A stretch of DNA of 62,872 bases from Candidatus Vecturithrix granuli. Lineage in GTDB: Bacteria > Moduliflexota > Moduliflexia > Moduliflexales > Moduliflexaceae. The notes under the pieces were generated by a model. The model had not been told where the DNA came from. It searched no databases and worked only from the letters and a program-made list of their open reading frames with translations. Made by a program: the position numbers and the translations under genes. This document shows, in pieces, positions 6,477 through 14,542 of this stretch. Numbering within the stretch: position 1 is the stretch's first letter; each line of letters opens with the position of its first letter. The DNA is taken from contig DF820470.1 in NCBI GenBank assembly GCA_000739535.1, forward strand, positions 119,581-182,452, in the 5' to 3' direction.

Positions 6477-9400
6477 TTAAGAGAAGTTGTTATCTTTTTT
6501 TGACAATTCTTTCTCTATGATCCGCCTTAAAACAATACGTCTGAACAGAAAGATCCCTATCAGACCCGAACCGACGAGGAAGAGCGTGTTCAGTTCAGGA
6601 ATACCCAAAACGGTGATGTCAACAGCATCAATGACAAGTTCAGGAACAGCGGCAATCCTCGTACTATCATCGCTCATAAGACCAAGTTCAACGATATTAG
6701 CTGCTTCAGTATCAGAATCAACCTGGAGAAGTTCAAAGACGGATGACATTTCCAATCCGACAAGTTCAGATACACCAGAAACTTCGTTAACAGCGAGAGT
6801 GGCGAATTCAGAGGAATCGGCAGATAGAGTACGAGTGGTGACAAGGGGCGATGTAAATAAGGCGGTCGTTTCAGTATCCTTTGCCGAAGAATCCCATACA
6901 AAGCGAAAGGCATCTGCGACAACCTCTCCTTTTAATGTACTGGATAGCACCACAGAATTACTCTCCCCTGCTTCAAAAAGAAATGTTCCGAGGTACTTCC
7001 ACTCTTTGTAATAATTGGTAAAATCAACGACAACCTGATCTTGCTGTCCCGCATGATTAATAGTAATTACGGCATTGGTCGCTCTTGAACTTGAAGATGA
7101 ACTAAAGGCATCACGCCACCATCCATAGACCTGATAATTTCCGGTTTCAGGGATATTAGGTGTCCAGGAAGCTGTTGAACGGCCCTTACTCACAGAGGCA
7201 ATCAAAAAATCTGATCCGTAAAATCCCATTATATTGGTGGTGCTTTCCCAATCGCCGGAATACTGAAATTCAGGGTCATCATTGTCGATGATAATCCCAC
7301 TTTCAGTTTTGCTACAGCTTCCGTCTGTCTGCGAAACACCCGTCTCACACCCACAGACAATGCTATTTTCTACCAGATATCCACCTGTTATACATCGCAG
7401 AGGTTTTGTCGCAGAACAGGCGTCAACAAGGGTGCCATCCGGACACTGTTCAGGAGGATTTGAGTTGTACGTCATTCTGGAAAGAATAAACTCATAGGCA
7501 TTCTCGTGATCGCTCAAATCAGAAATATACCCTCCATAAAAATCATAGACTCGCTTGATTTCAAGATGAATATGGAGTCCGGAAGGCGCCCATCCTGTTT
7601 CCCCCACTATTCCAAGAACAGTTCCTTTCGGAAGAAATTCTCCTATACTAAAACGATCTGCAGGGGAATCAGCAAGATGGTTATACCAGGAATAGACATA
7701 CTCTCCATTTGGTAAAAGGTGCTTGATCATAATCGCGTTCCCAAATCCATTAAAGCTTTGTACCCATCCATTGGCAATATTAAGAGCATTAACGTCAGTG
7801 CGATAGACTGCAAAGTCGGTTCCGGCATGATAACCACTTTGTTCTAATCGTTTATTGCCAAAGGCCTGGAAAATAAAAAAGTCTTGTTCTTCAATGGGCC
7901 ATATAAACTCATACGCCACAATATCAGAATCACTCACAATCACGTAATCGGATTTGAAAATCGTCTCTTCCTGATTATTACTATCTGTCACGGTGAGTTG
8001 GACCGTGTACGTGCCAGGTTCCTCGTAACTATGGGTTGGATGTTGCTCAGTACTCGTGGTCCCATCTCCGAACTCCCACAGCCAACTCACAATCTCACCC
8101 AGAGAATTATCCGTGAATTGTACTTCTAACGGAGCCAAACCTGTCAGAGGAGTCGCCGTAAAATCTGCTTCAAGTGACAAAGTAGATTGAAATTTTATAG
8201 CATCTGCTACCGGATTGCCATCGGTCTCATTGGTTACCACCACGGTGGTTTCCCCCGCCAGGAAATGATACGTGCCTAAATCATTCCATTGTCCTCCATT
8301 ACTCTGCTGATCAACTTCGATTCTGGCTGATCCCTCAGCATGCGTGATGATGTATGGCACATTCGAGGCTCTGGTCGAATACGGGCTTGACCACCAGGCC
8401 GACACTCGATAGTCGCCCTCTTCTGGAATCGTGATCGTCCAGATTGCCTTGTCTGTCCCATCCCCGCCATAGCTCCACTGATAGTTATTGCCATAATAAC
8501 CTGAAATCAAAGTTGAGAAAGGCCAATCTCCAACTGTGCTAAACTTACTATCTTCATTGTCGATAATCATGACTGTCCAAGAGGGCGTTACCGTCGGGGT
8601 TGCCGTCGGTACAGGCGTCGGAGTCACTGTTGGAATAGGCGTTGGAGTCACGGTCGGGATAGGCGTGGGCGTCGGGGTTGATACCGCCACCTCGAGTTTC
8701 ACGGCATCAGCCACCGGCACGTTATCAGCGTCATTACTTAACACCACGGTCGTCGTCCCGGCCAGAAAATGATAGATCCCTAACGGATTCCATTGCCCCC
8801 CATTACTCCGCTGATCCGCCTCAACTCGCGTTGTTCCCTGAGCATGGGTGATCGTATAGGGAGCATTCGACGGTCTGGTCGAATACGGATTCGACCACCA
8901 GGCTGATACCTGATAATCCCCTTCCACCGGAATGTAAAAAGTCCAGATGGCTTTGCTGGTCCCCGTCCCGGCATAGCTCCACTGGTAGTTCGTCCCATAA
9001 TACCCGGATACCAGGGTAGAAGCAGGCCAGTCACCCACCACGCTGAAATCACTCTCACTGTTATCAATAATCTTGCTTGTCCAGAGTTCTGAAATAGTGA
9101 TATATCGAGTTTTCGTGAGAGTGTCTTCCTGACTATCACCCGTGATGGTCAGACTCACGGAGTAGGTCCCCGGGGTAGAATAGATGTGGGTCGGATGTTG
9201 CTCTCTACTCGTGGTGCCATCTCCAAACTCCCACAGCCAATTCGTGATCGTTCCCTGAGACTGATCTGTAAACGACACCTCTAACGGGGCGACCCCTATC
9301 AATGGACCTGCGACAAAATCGGCCTTTATGGACACGGACTCCAGTTTTACGGCATCGGCGACCGGATTGTTGTCAGCGTCATTACTCAACACGACAGTCG

Positions 9401-9809
9401 CTGTCCCGGCCTGGAACTGATAGGTGCCTAACGGGTTCCATTGTCCTCCATTACTTCGCTGATCAACCACAACTTTGGTGGCACCATTCGCATGATTGAT
9501 CGTATATGGGGCATTTGACGCTCGCGTCGAATACGGGCTCGACCACCAGGCAGATACCTGATAGTACCCCGTCGCCGGGACGGTAAATGTCCACGTTGCT
9601 CTCCTGGAGCCAGTACCTGCATACGCCCAGTGATAATTGCTCCCATAATACCCAGGCACTGTAGTAGAGGTGTACCAGCTTCCAACCGTACTGAACCCCG
9701 CATCCTTATTATCAATAGTGATAATATCAGCCTGGAGGACAGGGGATATTCCTGTTATCAATATTACACTACATATAACGATGAAAACAGATCTTCTTCT
9801 CATACTCAT
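6477..9809 (-). CDS. Secreted M23 metallopeptidase with golvesin-like and PKD domains, PEP-CTERM-type anchor
   Basis: Protein of 1110 aa. Order: signal peptide (1-27), golvesin-like domain 1 (30-160), PKD 1 (160-243), golvesin-like 2 (245-375), a Pro/Thr linker of repeated PTPTP units (374-410), golvesin-like 3 (415-540), PKD 2 (543-626), peptidase M23 (632-770), a Cys-containing linker (777-833), golvesin-like 4 (835-973), then a tail ending in IPELNT, a hydrophobic helix and an Arg cluster (1068-1090), a PEP-CTERM variant. M23 zinc ligands appear as HAGTD (about 662) and HIH (about 748). The likely role is cleavage or binding of peptidoglycan or matrix at the surface. The ATG at 9809 is chosen because GAGGAGG lies six to eight bases upstream; a GTG at 9851 lacks this. 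Its leader holds a c-di-GMP riboswitch candidate. Confidence 0.85.
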   Translation of the reverse strand: MSMRRRSVFIVICSVILITGISPVLQADIITIDNKDAGFSTVGSWYTSTTVPGYYGSNYHWAYAGTGSRRATWTFTVPATGYYQVSAWWSSPYSTRASNAPYTINHANGATKVVVDQRSNGGQWNPLGTYQFQAGTATVVLSNDADNNPVADAVKLESVSIKADFVAGPLIGVAPLEVSFTDQSQGTITNWLWEFGDGTTSREQHPTHIYSTPGTYSVSLTITGDSQEDTLTKTRYITISELWTSKIIDNSESDFSVVGDWPASTLVSGYYGTNYQWSYAGTGTSKAIWTFYIPVEGDYQVSAWWSNPYSTRPSNAPYTITHAQGTTRVEADQRSNGGQWNPLGIYHFLAGTTTVVLSNDADNVPVADAVKLEVAVSTPTPTPIPTVTPTPIPTVTPTPVPTATPTVTPSWTVMIIDNEDSKFSTVGDWPFSTLISGYYGNNYQWSYGGDGTDKAIWTITIPEEGDYRVSAWWSSPYSTRASNVPYIITHAEGSARIEVDQQSNGGQWNDLGTYHFLAGETTVVVTNETDGNPVADAIKFQSTLSLEADFTATPLTGLAPLEVQFTDNSLGEIVSWLWEFGDGTTSTEQHPTHSYEEPGTYTVQLTVTDSNNQEETIFKSDYVIVSDSDIVAYEFIWPIEEQDFFIFQAFGNKRLEQSGYHAGTDFAVYRTDVNALNIANGWVQSFNGFGNAIMIKHLLPNGEYVYSWYNHLADSPADRFSIGEFLPKGTVLGIVGETGWAPSGLHIHLEIKRVYDFYGGYISDLSDHENAYEFILSRMTYNSNPPEQCPDGTLVDACSATKPLRCITGGYLVENSIVCGCETGVSQTDGSCSKTESGIIIDNDDPEFQYSGDWESTTNIMGFYGSDFLIASVSKGRSTASWTPNIPETGNYQVYGWWRDAFSSSSSSRATNAVITINHAGQQDQVVVDFTNYYKEWKYLGTFLFEAGESNSVVLSSTLKGEVVADAFRFVWDSSAKDTETTALFTSPLVTTRTLSADSSEFATLAVNEVSGVSELVGLEMSSVFELLQVDSDTEAANIVELGLMSDDSTRIAAVPELVIDAVDITVLGIPELNTLFLVGSGLIGIFLFRRIVLRRIIEKELSKKDNNFS

Positions 9810-9854
9810 TTTCCCCTCCTCAATAATGTTTTCTAGCGTTTTTGTTCGCACGTC

Positions 9855-9955
9855 ATAAAAAAAACCGGGTTACCCTTCAGGCAACCCGGCTATCTTCAAA
9901 AAGACCCGCAGCTTTCCGTCCTTATCTCTCGATAAGTTTGGCTTTATCTATATTT
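9855..9955 (-). promoter_or_regulatory. Cyclic-di-GMP-I (GEMM) riboswitch with overlapping terminator
   Basis: Read on the minus strand from about 9950: AAAGCCAAAC, a perfect CUUAUC-GAGA-GAUAAG hairpin with a GNRA tetraloop (9921-9936), GGACGGAAAGC, GCGGGUCUU, then GAAGAUAGCCGGGUUGCC. These blocks occur in the order and spacing of the GEMM-I aptamer: CAAAC, GNRA-capped P1b, GGACGxAAAGC, and the 3' UAGCCGGGUUGCC receptor strand. The last block also forms the 5' arm of a terminator (CCGGGUUGCC with GGGUAACCCGG, 9865-9889) followed by eight U. Ligand binding should therefore block termination and switch the M23/golvesin gene on. This is read by eye, without a covariance model. Confidence 0.82.
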
Positions 9956-10621
9956 TTTGTTTCTTCTATATGTTTTTACCTCATATTTTCTGCAATATAT
10001 GTACCAAATTAAAGCATTTTAGAAAAAGATAGTTTTATAGTCTTGGGTTTCCAGCATTTTACGAACAGTTTAAGGATGAAAAATTTTTTTCAAGAGAGAA
10101 TATTTCAGAGATTTTACATCTCAAACTTCGCTCATTTTGTAAAATTTTTCGACATGTACTTTTTTAAATTTCCTGGAATTACTCTCATGTAAGGTATATT
10201 GGGAAAATTTTCGAACTGTCGATAAATTTTACACCTTATTTAACTAATTTTACAACTCATTGATTTTATTAAATTTATGTTAATTAAGAACTGTAAAAAA
10301 AATCGACAGGCTTTTGGAGGAAGATAAGATTGGCATGATTTACGCTTATAACTAGAGAGCTATAAGATATCGTATTCGAGACAGTTGCTTCGATGAGAGT
10401 TGTTTCGCTATGGTCGCCTGATTCATGATAGAAGGCGAAGTCTCAATATATGGCCTCCGTTCACGACAGATATCAGGCGACCACCATGCGTTCTCGTCAA
10501 TCCTTTGAGAGGGTTTCATCATTCAACCTCTTTTCTTCTCGTTGATGATGAAACCATCATTTATAACCCCTCTGATTCAATGCAAGTGAATAGTGTTACA
10601 TATAATATCTGCAATGGCAGA
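9956..10621. other. Long AT-rich spacer with inverted repeats
   Basis: About 670 bases without a convincing gene. 9956-10330 is very AT-rich and should contain the promoter for the riboswitch leader. 10411-10555 holds two inverted repeats: TGGTCGCCTGAT (10411-10422) with ATCAGGCGACCA (10472-10483), and GGTTTCATCAT (10512-10522) with ATGATGAAACC (10545-10555). They may serve as the 3' processing or termination region of the PEP-CTERM gene ending at 10622, or be a decayed palindromic repeat. Confidence 0.5.
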
Positions 10622-13600
10622 TTAGTGAGTGATGATGCGTCGTTTAATTGCAATGATTCCAAGAAATCCCAGACCAATTAGCAGCAGAGTTGCGGGTTCG
10701 GGAACTGGTGCGATCTCTGTACGGCAATCAATGGCCTGTACCCCTCGGATCACCCAATTGTTTTCATAAATATCAAGGTACCACCATCCACCAGCCATAT
10801 CTACCGAAAGGAGAATCATGGCATTCAAAGTATCCTTTGAATCAGTTACCCATAACCCCGTATAATTTCCGAAATCGTCAAACTCATACCCCCAGACAGC
10901 CAAATCGTGGACACCATCATTTCCATAAGCATTCAGGGTGACACCATATCCGCTGTGAAGATAGTTCTTGATTGTTTCCATTAAATGGCTTCCATTACTC
11001 CACTGTCCATCAGAGAAATTCGCCCAATCTTCGTAAAAGTAATCAAAAAAATTATACTCTCCCCAATAATTGCCTGATCCGGTGAAATCAACTTGAGATG
11101 GACTTTCCTCGATAGTTGGTTGGTAGCCATTCAACCACCATGACCAACCATATTTCACATCGCCGAGGTCATCAGTCCAATGGGTTTCCATATTTTCAAA
11201 AATTGCCTGAGCTGTTTCATAAATTGGAGTATCCCAACCGGCCCATTTAAGGATATTGGCTGCCGCGGCCGCCCAGGCCATATTATCGGTAATTGTTTGG
11301 GTTGCATCGTGCCATGAACCTCCAAATTCTTCAAAACCAAAATATGATGTCGTCAGAATTTTCTGAAATTGAGCTTCTATGGTGTGATTCATCTGCACAT
11401 TCGTAAAGGTGTAGGTTGTGATACTCCCCTGGGCAATCCCGTCAACGTACACTTGTGCGATCTGATACCCAGTGTTTGGCGCCACGGTGAATGTCTTATC
11501 AGTTCCCTGAGTGATATGGATCTCGCCATTTGGGGTGATTGCTCCCCCTTCTCCTGCACCGGCACGAATGGTATAGGTCGTAAGGCTTGGTTGAAATTGA
11601 GCTTCTATGGTATGATTCATCTGCACATTCGTAAAGGTGTAGGTTGTGAGGCTCCCCTGGGCAATCCCATCAACAACCAACTGTGTAATCTGATACCCGG
11701 CGTTCGGCGTCACGGTGAACGTCTTATCTGTTCCCTGAGTGATATGGATCTCGCCATTTGGGGTGATTGTTCCCCCTTCTCCTGCACTGGCATGAATGGT
11801 ATAGGTCGTAAGGCTTGGTTGAAATTGAGCTTCTATAGTGTGATTCATCTGCACATTCGTAAAGGTGTAGGTTGTGATGCTCCCCTGGGCAATCCCGTCA
11901 ACAACCACCTGTGTGATCTGATACCCAGTGTTCGGCGTCACGGTGAATGTCTTATCCGTTCCCTGAGTGATACGGATTTCGCCATTTGGGGAGATCGTTC
12001 CCCCTTCTCCTGCACTGGCATGAATGGTATAGGTCGGGATTTCTTTAAATGTAGCAAGAACTTCTTTTGTACTATCGATTGTAATGGTGCAAGCATTAGT
12101 TCCAGTACAGTCCCCAGACCATCCATCAAAAAGGGAGTCAGGGTTGGGGGTTGCCGCCAGTGTTAAGATTGTCCCTTGTTTGTATGCTTCTGAACAATCA
12201 GAGGGACAATCTATTCCCTGTAAGTCGCTTGTCACTACACCTGTTCCTGAGCCTGATGTATTGACTGTCAGTGTATGCTTTACCGAAAGAGTTCCAACTT
12301 TCCAGACATGAATTACTGGCTGAGAATCTTCTCCAGAGCTCTCTGCCAGGTATAAATAACCATTAACATTATCATAGGCTATTGCGGACATAGAGGGATA
12401 TTGCTCATCTTTTTTAATCAGGGTATTGGTAATATCTATAGAATAATATGCTTTAGGTTCCCATGATTCTATCTCACCTTTAGCAACTTTTCCAAGTTCA
12501 ACTGGATTATAAAATTTTAACATACATTTTGTTTGGCTAGAATTGTAACCGCGAATCATCGAATGAGTTGTTGAGGGAATATCCTGATCACTTAACTCAG
12601 CAGAATCTCCATCTTCCCCACCGTACCATACATCACCATTAGGCCTGATCCCTACAAAAACCAGTGCGGACTTTTGTCCCGTTTCAAGCCAGACTGCTCC
12701 ATCATTCGCACTCATTGGAGTCCAATTTGTGTCCCAATGTTCCATTTCATCAGTTGGTTCATAGCCGAGTAATTTGACAGCACTTACAAAACCGCCATTT
12801 TCAGGTAAATGACCCCTTTCCCATGGGGCAGTAGCATAGAGGGTGGGACCACAGGAAGGCCAACCATGGCCACTTATTGGCCAGCCAAGACCAACAAGCA
12901 GAGATCTTCCACCAGTATACTGGTCCGCCCAATTTTGGGGAACTGCTACGATAAATTTGCCAGTATAACGAACATCTACCCTCTCTGAAGAACCTAAAGG
13001 CCCGCCTATATGCCAGGCGCCAATTGAATCGGTGAGAGCCATATTGAAATAGCCATGCGCTGGTGCAGTTAATGAAGTAGAGTAAGATTTGTATAACCCA
13101 TAGTAAATTCCTTCCAGAACCCCATTCATACTCGGATGATAGGCTATTCCAACCCCATTTGACACACTTCCTGCCGGTAACCAGTCTCCATTATATACTC
13201 TTGGCCAGATATTTACAAAAGGTTTTAAGGTTCTTGCCCTTAGCATATTGGATGTATTGAGAGTCTTGGTCGGTTTAGGAATGCTGATTTCAGAGATTTC
13301 TATACGATGATCGTGACCTATCCCATAGAGAGAACCGGGGAATTCTGTTGCAGGATTATAATTAGGATTTCCTTTGGGGTAGAATGTCAATCCTTGACCA
13401 CCATACTCCCAATCACTATCAGTTGGTAATGTAAAGCCACCTAAATATTCCAAATCCTCAAACGGATTAATTAGGGAATCCGAAGTAACTGTAGGTGTCG
13501 TGATCGAAGTAGTGGCAGGGGCACTCTCATTTCCTAATCTAGCCTGAAAATCATTGGCAGGAGAAGGGTAATACCCATTTTTGGTATTATCAATTGCTGT

Positions 13601-14542
13601 TACAGAATAATGATAGGTTGTATTGGAGGCAACATTGGAATCTATATACTGAATATTCTCTCCCCAATAGATTGTCCAGTCGCTATTTACTGTATCGTAT
13701 AACTCTCCATTCCGATAGATAAAATAGCGAGATATACCTGAAGGATCGGCGTTATTTGATCCTGGCGGATCTGGAGGTTGATTCCAGGTTAGTTCTACAA
13801 GATTATTATCAGTGTCTTGCGACAGAGATGTTAAATGAGCCTTAAGGTTAATCGGTGATAAAGGGGGAGTTATGTCGGCATTTTTCAACTCTATCTTTGT
13901 TAAGACAATTTCACCGAAGGAGCTATCATAATCATGAGCAATATTTATGTTTACAACATCATGGAATCCTTCAGTCGGAAGAGCTAGTGGGGCATTTATA
14001 TGAGCCTGATCTGTAATATTAAATATCAACTCACCAGTTTGATGACCGTCTAAAGTTAAATAACCCTCTCTTTCCTCATAGTACATGGTATTCCATGGGG
14101 TATCGAATGTGGCTCCTTTTGGCGAATCCTTGTCTGAAAAACTTATTCTGGCCATTATTCTTCTTGACTGGCCTGTGGCATTATAAAAAGTGGCAACAAT
14201 CTTTTGGCCGTATTGAAAGTGAATAGGAGTCGTTCCTTTTATCCCGATATAAGGAAGATGTTTATCTGGAGTATTTCTCGTATCAGTAATTCCAGCATGT
14301 TGCGGATTTCCGTCAGGATTCACATAAGTTGTATATTGCGGATGCCTTATGACCTGATTCCATCCATCAATCTCAAATTGATTTTCTTGTTCATTCTTGC
14401 CAAAATCAACAAGTACTCCGAGAGTTGGGTTACTATCATCAGAAAAAGAGTAAGGAATATGAACAAAAAGAATAACTATTGCTAAAACTATAGAGCTTAC
14501 TATTAACTTTTTCATAACACGATTGATCTGTAGAATACCCAT
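10622..14542 (-). CDS. Giant PEP-CTERM protein with IdeS/C39-like domain lacking the catalytic Cys
   Basis: Protein of 1306 aa: signal peptide, N-terminal beta domain, a fibronectin-III-like stretch (about 228-338), a 390-residue region I do not recognise (about 361-755, possibly a beta-propeller), four tandem repeats of the Flg_new_2/InlB-B type (about 757-1064; the last three nearly identical), a papain-like domain of the IdeS/C39 kind (1066-1270), and VPEPATLLLIGLGFLG with an Arg pair (1278-1302), a textbook PEP-CTERM signal. The protease domain keeps VHDLAVWGYEF (His) and VTDSKD (Asp) but where relatives read D-N-x-C-W-A-A it has DNMAWAA; the Ala codon is at 11276-11278. It is probably a surface-anchored binding protein. 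The start is uncertain; ATG at 14515 is an alternative. Confidence 0.8.
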   Translation of the reverse strand: MGILQINRVMKKLIVSSIVLAIVILFVHIPYSFSDDSNPTLGVLVDFGKNEQENQFEIDGWNQVIRHPQYTTYVNPDGNPQHAGITDTRNTPDKHLPYIGIKGTTPIHFQYGQKIVATFYNATGQSRRIMARISFSDKDSPKGATFDTPWNTMYYEEREGYLTLDGHQTGELIFNITDQAHINAPLALPTEGFHDVVNINIAHDYDSSFGEIVLTKIELKNADITPPLSPINLKAHLTSLSQDTDNNLVELTWNQPPDPPGSNNADPSGISRYFIYRNGELYDTVNSDWTIYWGENIQYIDSNVASNTTYHYSVTAIDNTKNGYYPSPANDFQARLGNESAPATTSITTPTVTSDSLINPFEDLEYLGGFTLPTDSDWEYGGQGLTFYPKGNPNYNPATEFPGSLYGIGHDHRIEISEISIPKPTKTLNTSNMLRARTLKPFVNIWPRVYNGDWLPAGSVSNGVGIAYHPSMNGVLEGIYYGLYKSYSTSLTAPAHGYFNMALTDSIGAWHIGGPLGSSERVDVRYTGKFIVAVPQNWADQYTGGRSLLVGLGWPISGHGWPSCGPTLYATAPWERGHLPENGGFVSAVKLLGYEPTDEMEHWDTNWTPMSANDGAVWLETGQKSALVFVGIRPNGDVWYGGEDGDSAELSDQDIPSTTHSMIRGYNSSQTKCMLKFYNPVELGKVAKGEIESWEPKAYYSIDITNTLIKKDEQYPSMSAIAYDNVNGYLYLAESSGEDSQPVIHVWKVGTLSVKHTLTVNTSGSGTGVVTSDLQGIDCPSDCSEAYKQGTILTLAATPNPDSLFDGWSGDCTGTNACTITIDSTKEVLATFKEIPTYTIHASAGEGGTISPNGEIRITQGTDKTFTVTPNTGYQITQVVVDGIAQGSITTYTFTNVQMNHTIEAQFQPSLTTYTIHASAGEGGTITPNGEIHITQGTDKTFTVTPNAGYQITQLVVDGIAQGSLTTYTFTNVQMNHTIEAQFQPSLTTYTIRAGAGEGGAITPNGEIHITQGTDKTFTVAPNTGYQIAQVYVDGIAQGSITTYTFTNVQMNHTIEAQFQKILTTSYFGFEEFGGSWHDATQTITDNMAWAAAAANILKWAGWDTPIYETAQAIFENMETHWTDDLGDVKYGWSWWLNGYQPTIEESPSQVDFTGSGNYWGEYNFFDYFYEDWANFSDGQWSNGSHLMETIKNYLHSGYGVTLNAYGNDGVHDLAVWGYEFDDFGNYTGLWVTDSKDTLNAMILLSVDMAGGWWYLDIYENNWVIRGVQAIDCRTEIAPVPEPATLLLIGLGFLGIIAIKRRIITH
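11350..12040 (-). repeat. Three tandem 228-bp coding repeats
   Basis: Within the PEP-CTERM gene, three consecutive units of about 76 codons are nearly identical at the DNA level, for example the segment encoding TYTFTNVQMNHTIEAQFQ recurs with almost no changes. Such uniformity suggests recent duplication or gene conversion and makes the region prone to copy-number change and assembly error. An upstream fourth unit (about 12035-12275) is diverged. Confidence 0.85.

Follow-up and report, generated by a model that had tools for sequence, protein, structure and literature searches.

A predicted c-di-GMP-I riboswitch before a golvesin/M23 peptidase gene of Candidatus Vecturithrix granuli, and its sister copies in the genome

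Introduction

The pilM riboswitch of Geobacter metallireducens, a GEMM-Ib element that senses cGAMP and is placed before a pilus operon, was experimentally shown to be an ON switch (PMC9262584). In Clostridioides difficile, a c-di-GMP-I riboswitch precedes zmpI/PPEP-1, which codes for a secreted zinc metalloprotease acting on surface proteins (PMC6366702). In Methylophaga nitratireducenticrescens GP59, c-di-GMP riboswitches (Ribo4-7) are reported before PEP-CTERM genes beside exopolysaccharide (EPS) genes, most of them with more transcript in biofilm (PMC12530212). For pepA of Aquincola tertiaricarbonis, a PEP-CTERM gene, the dependence on RpoN is known experimentally and that on PrsK-PrsR by prediction (PMC9850573). 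Moreover, c-di-GMP-linked control of an M23 hydrolase has been described in a system without a riboswitch (PMC7705223).

The locus analyzed here lies in a window of 62,872 nucleotides from Candidatus Vecturithrix granuli, the whole stretch of contig DF820470.1 that was studied. It is very likely that a c-di-GMP-I ON riboswitch forms the 5′ leader of a peptidase mRNA whose transcription starts from a sigma-54 promoter, and that the product takes part in envelope or matrix remodeling; within this reading, we infer the ligand, the polarity, the promoter use, the enzyme activity and the physiological role.

The combination of a c-di-GMP-I riboswitch and a secreted metalloprotease is shared with zmpI/PPEP-1, which differs in being regulated negatively by c-di-GMP, in coding for a Pro-Pro endopeptidase instead of an M23 enzyme, and in having Gram-positive sortase substrates as its targets. 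The Methylophaga targets are PEP-CTERM/VPLPA-CTERM proteins, and neither an M23/golvesin target nor a sigma-54 link is reported in the passages considered (PMC12530212). As in pepA, a sigma-54 promoter-like site stands before the gene of an exported PEP-CTERM-type protein, linked in that case to EPS and flocs, and PrsR is also found in the host genome; however, neither a riboswitch nor c-di-GMP is mentioned for pepA, whereas here the control of initiation and that of elongation would act in series. The preliminary description of this locus had considered the coupling of riboswitch and peptidase as undescribed. It is less new than that, because of the Methylophaga and C. difficile precedents (PMC12530212; PMC6366702): what is new is the golvesin-M23 target and the serial arrangement of sigma-54 and riboswitch, and what was already known is the coupling of a riboswitch with PEP-CTERM genes beside EPS genes.

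Aptamer and terminator in the peptidase leader

The leader carries the following elements:
9876 to 9951, minus strand: c-di-GMP-I (GEMM-I) aptamer (cmscan and alignment to the model)
9921 to 9936, minus strand: P1b hairpin capped by a GNRA loop, GAGA (sequence, model alignment and compensatory changes across 27 genome copies)
9857 to 9890, minus strand: intrinsic terminator, a 12-bp stem followed by eight U (5′ arm formed by the aptamer 3′ strand; fold energies)

The top-scoring Rfam model for the aptamer was RF03167 (c-di-GMP-I-GGC), with 70.4 bits and E 1.2e-14 for a curated cut-off of 59 bits. The Infernal search against RF01051 suggested in the preliminary description also gave a significant match, at 66.9 bits for a cut-off of 35. 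Searched with the same covariance models, the host genome yielded 28-29 strong copies, and none of the well-known control genomes rose above the cut-off, which excludes a chance match. The blocks previously placed in GEMM-I order on the minus strand, which are CAAAC (9940-9936), P1b, GGACGGAAAGC (9921-9911) and UAGCCGGGUUGCC (9892-9880), proved exact in their coordinates. The three-helix GEMM-I fold with its GNRA-capped P1b was supported by the alignment of 27 genome copies, in which the helices were preserved and compensatory changes occurred in P1b; the outermost P1 pairs of this aptamer were poor.

The sharing of the aptamer 3′ strand with a terminator, noted before, was recovered in full: the strand GCCGGGUUGCCU (9890-9879, minus) both closes the aptamer and forms the 5′ arm of the stem at 9890-9864, which runs into the U tract at 9864-9857. 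Two terminator-like structures were present in the leader, against a shuffle mean of 0.5. The terminator alone reached -21.1 kcal/mol and beat the aptamer fold from a transcript of about 84 nt onward, and a bare-energy model favored it by about 25 kcal/mol at full length. At least 15 other genome copies have the same layout, with the terminator 5′ arm inside the aptamer.

The terminator takes up the ligand-contact base C92, whose partner lies only 6 nt downstream, the shortest spacing among the copies measured; in pilM, the ligand-pairing C and its terminator partner are 27 nt apart (C75 to G102). This spacing implies a short time for ligand binding, so that the switch could be weakly responsive, and we infer a short decision window with a strong dependence on polymerase speed. 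The same spacing, together with a terminator that outweighs the aptamer fold, would also fit a decayed riboswitch or a simple terminator, in which the window is too short for any useful ligand response. Such decay is improbable, however, as every conserved aptamer position is intact, the score is the fourth best in the genome, and spacings of 7-9 nt are found in several copies that are clearly intact.

Signal and polarity

The ligand-contact bases of the aptamer, read from the alignment, are G at 9942 (G20), A at 9915 (A47) and C at 9880 (C92). They occupy positions 10, 37 and 76 of RF03167, which we take to be Vc2 G20, A47 and C92 after mapping by hand and a check against the model consensus. 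By this alignment, they are the canonical c-di-GMP base set, in line with the c-di-GMP-I class originally proposed. Among the 27 aligned genome copies, positions 47 and 92 were A and C in all 27, and position 20 was G in 23 and A in four. Moreover, the genome encodes 20 GGDEF domains, and the serine signature of Hypr-type GGDEF domains (PMC6456294) was found in none of those where the site was readable; for this reason, c-di-GMP is the expected signal. An aptamer sensing 3′3′-cGAMP (GEMM-Ib) would fold alike, pilM with this layout responds to cGAMP as an ON switch (PMC9262584), and the four A20 copies show that the cGAMP-type base occurs in this genome. Nevertheless, the peptidase leader carries G20 instead of A20, and with no Hypr serine at the readable sites this reading is marginally less probable than decay.

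Read-through in the presence of ligand is the best prediction for the peptidase leader, because the terminator overlap is arranged as in the ON switch pilM, with which it shares the aptamer architecture, the use of the aptamer 3′ strand as terminator 5′ arm and the mutual exclusion of the two folds. The ON polarity formerly deduced from this overlap is, by this analogy and by the lack of a separate terminator, the most likely one. If, as with ZmpI/PPEP-1 of C. difficile, the ligand promoted termination, the switch would resemble about six other genome copies (hits 0, 2, 5, 7, 13 and 24), in which a separate downstream terminator has a 5′ arm that can pair with the aptamer 3′ strand. This OFF polarity is less probable still than cGAMP sensing, since the peptidase leader has no second hairpin and its sole terminator uses the aptamer strand itself.

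In two further copies (hits 1 and 8), the aptamer strand is set against the Shine-Dalgarno sequence. Because the copies use the aptamer strand in different layouts, the genome seems to hold both polarities, with the layout classes read by eye, the automatic classifier having mislabeled some OFF-like copies (0, 5 and 24) and missed short U tracts (9, 17 and 23). The predicted-OFF copies (C17:371056, C16:317217, C18:145159, C17:515396, C13:284117 and C15:68326) stand beside an ON majority, and four of the six precede PEP-CTERM genes.

Least probable is that the aptamer belongs to the separate c-di-GMP-I-GGC variant family and senses another ligand. Although RF03167 is the best-scoring model, its name, which we read as G20/G47/C92 in agreement with the model consensus, calls for a G47 (model position 37), and this base is A both here and in all 27 copies examined; RF01051 also lies far over its cut-off.

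The peptidase and its neighborhood

Downstream and upstream of the riboswitch, the following features were delimited:
6477 to 9809, minus strand: gene of a 1110-aa exported-type protein, with its ATG at 9809 (Pfam, residues, tail profile)
9813 to 9820, minus strand: Shine-Dalgarno sequence AGGAGGGG (sequence)
10622 to 14542, minus strand: gene of a 1306-aa PEP-CTERM protein with InlB-type repeats, upstream of the peptidase gene (Pfam, NCBIfam TIGR02595; no riboswitch by Rfam)
14997 to 36898, no strand assigned: exopolysaccharide locus of the PEP-CTERM/XrtA type (profile matches)

The M23/golvesin nature of the 1110-aa product was borne out by Pfam, which recognized four Golvesin_C, two PKD and one Peptidase_M23 domain, the last at residues 660-753 (32.6 bits, cut-off 28.7) with the HxxxD and HxH metal-ligand motifs present (H661, D665, H711, H746 and H748). 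A signal peptide was read by eye at the N-terminus. In a PDB search, the golvesin part resembled the C-terminal domain of the Paenibacillus xanthan lyase 6f2p, and this resemblance suggests polysaccharide binding.

The C-terminal tail IPELNTLFLVGSGLIGIFLFRR presents a PEL/TM/RR organization that is PEP-CTERM-like but degenerate, with PEL for PEP. A local profile showed its resemblance to the genome's own PEP-CTERM tails (20.0 bits, vs. 8.1 for the best of 999 shuffled tails), but the curated cut-offs were missed, as PF07589 gave 16.9 bits for a cut-off of 20.7 in the genome scan and TIGR02595 found no match on the protein. The label of PEP-CTERM peptidase given earlier is only loosely right, because the tail is PEL and not PEP.

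The neighboring exopolysaccharide locus was likewise as described, comprising a TIGR03087 glycosyltransferase (456.6 bits, cut-off 316.65), a Wzy_C ligase, a flippase, an asparagine synthase-like protein and further glycosyltransferases. The 1110-aa protein is the only Golvesin_C protein in the genome, and one golvesin protein occurs elsewhere in the family. No orthologue was found in three genomes of the same order, so that the pairing of riboswitch and peptidase lacks conservation support; other genomes gave only partial matches (PKD, golvesin and other single domains), and the coupling of riboswitch and golvesin-M23 protein is known from one genome.

Sigma-54 promoter motif

One further element lies upstream of the aptamer:
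9991 to 10007, minus strand: sigma-54 (-24/-12) promoter-like site TTGGTACATATATTGCA, located 40 nt upstream of the aptamer (pattern scan and scoring)

Like the 29-copy regulon treated below, this site adds to the preliminary description. It matches the consensus, with the -24 GG and -12 GC at fixed spacing (strict TGGYAYRNNNNTTGCW match at 10006-9991, minus strand), and its sigma-54-like score is the second best in the window on both strands. The best site, TTGGCATGATGATTGCT (14751-14735, minus strand), precedes the 1306-aa PEP-CTERM gene, which has no riboswitch. Sites scoring at least 15 were present up to 150 nt upstream of 15 of the 29 GEMM-I copies vs. 1.1% of random stretches (binomial 4e-22), by a hand-made score that was designed after the site at 10007-9991 had been seen. 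A strict consensus of the published type was also enriched (4/29 vs. 0.0008 per stretch). For sigma-70 promoters, the matches in the leader were no better than in shuffles, reaching at best 8/12 within 130 nt. One exosortase and PrsR (TIGR02915, 613.7 bits for a cut-off of 502.6) are also encoded in the genome.

A genome-wide set of GEMM-I riboswitches

With a size of 8.4 Mb and an estimated contamination of 10.75%, the host genome carries 29 GEMM-I copies, grouped into 26 units, compared with 3, 4 and 4 copies in three same-order relatives. Judging from the genes that follow, most of the 29 riboswitches are predicted to control cell-surface proteins. Eleven of the 26 units stand before PEP-CTERM genes, with 25 PEP-CTERM proteins genome-wide and an estimated gene total of 7000 behind the enrichment figures of the regulon; in this assignment, the gene of hit 12 is 0.9 kb off, and the PEP-CTERM of hit 10 is read in a different frame, the gene being apparently frame-shifted. 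The peptidase unit, with its degenerate tail, is the twelfth, and eight units precede proteins ending in [S/N]SY[L/I]LWT[K/R] or close variants. A sigma-54-like site accompanied 10 of the 11 PEP-CTERM units vs. 1 of the 8 tagged units (Fisher p 0.001).

The set includes several unusual arrangements. At C14:491404-491910 (L031), three complete GEMM-I elements in series, each with its own terminator, precede the gene of a single cadherin-like protein of 1350 aa with LLWTR at its end. Two tandem copies at C2:17809-18114 (L018), the first of terminator type and the second apparently translational, precede a PEP-CTERM gene. Three riboswitch-controlled frames, at L025:3917-5983 (P0002), L033:4068-7067 (P0003) and L017:5541-7094 (P0004), continue in frame beyond the PEP-CTERM tail into another segment resembling a signal peptide and then into more exported sequence, which carries LRR repeats in two of them, as if two exported proteins had been fused into a polyprotein. 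A 26-nt GEMM-I remnant (C2:53980-54005, 19.2 bits), which looks like a decayed riboswitch, lies upstream of the PEP-CTERM gene C2:53077, a gene that retains a strong sigma-54-like site. The copy at C9:106245-106323 is unusually placed: its 3′ strand lies opposite the Shine-Dalgarno sequence of a tiny open frame, and a gene judged by eye to be FolD-like follows about 190 nt further downstream. The four A20 (cGAMP-type) copies are found at C18:511147, C18:508541, C21:116508 and C4:76918, three of them before SYLLWTK-type genes.

A shared C-terminal tag

Beyond the window, about 39 otherwise unrelated and mostly exported proteins of the host genome, including trypsin-like, papain, beta-propeller, cadherin, Spherulin4 and other types, end exactly in [S/N]SY[L/I]LWT[K/R]. 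The pattern matched 39 times in this genome, never in a reversed control, and at most once in any of the 191 other genomes scanned. Its origin from a repeated DNA element or the end of a cassette was ruled out, since the synonymous codons of the tag vary and the DNA downstream of the tagged genes is unrelated. No NCBIfam model and no relevant publication were found for SYLLWT[K/R], which appears to be a so far undescribed sorting tag at the C-terminus. Eight tagged proteins are encoded by the first genes after riboswitches, and more than 12 tagged genes are clustered on one strand at C18:497-525k. Example loci of tagged genes are:
C18:497060-525422 (L102-L104)
C4:77122-90281 (L105-L106)
C14:368690
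C16:120754-120844

Reached through the sister copies of the riboswitch, this tag was the most unusual item met in the analysis and is the larger opening.

Proposed mechanism and meaning

According to the preferred reading, the peptidase mRNA would begin with the c-di-GMP-I riboswitch as its leader and would most likely be transcribed from the sigma-54 promoter, starting some 30 nt ahead of the aptamer and driven by a PrsR-type activator. With c-di-GMP bound when the aptamer is completed, AGCCGGGUUGCC would be kept in the aptamer, the terminator would be blocked and the polymerase would enter the peptidase gene; with no ligand, the aptamer strand AGCCGGGUUGCC would pair with GGGUAACCCGG and transcription would end at the U tract. 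The product would be an exported, probably polysaccharide-binding M23 peptidase involved in the remodeling of the envelope or matrix in the sessile state. Filament remodeling as its role is speculation.

On a wider scale, a cyclic-dinucleotide regulon of 29 aptamers may control a large part of the surface proteome via two sorting routes, a proposal that we regard as evenly balanced between right and wrong. The exosortase/PEP-CTERM route would be gated twice, at initiation by sigma-54/PrsR and at elongation by c-di-GMP, through both ON and OFF copies. The route marked by the SYLLWT[K/R] tag on about 39 exported proteins would rely mostly on sigma-54-independent promoters and partly on A20 (cGAMP-type) aptamers. 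Since the same genes seem to be controlled first at initiation and then at elongation, this organism lends itself naturally to testing how two signals govern matrix proteins. In this bacterium, c-di-GMP would be tied by RNA directly to a secreted M23 hydrolase and, with the other 28 copies included, to a large share of the cell surface.
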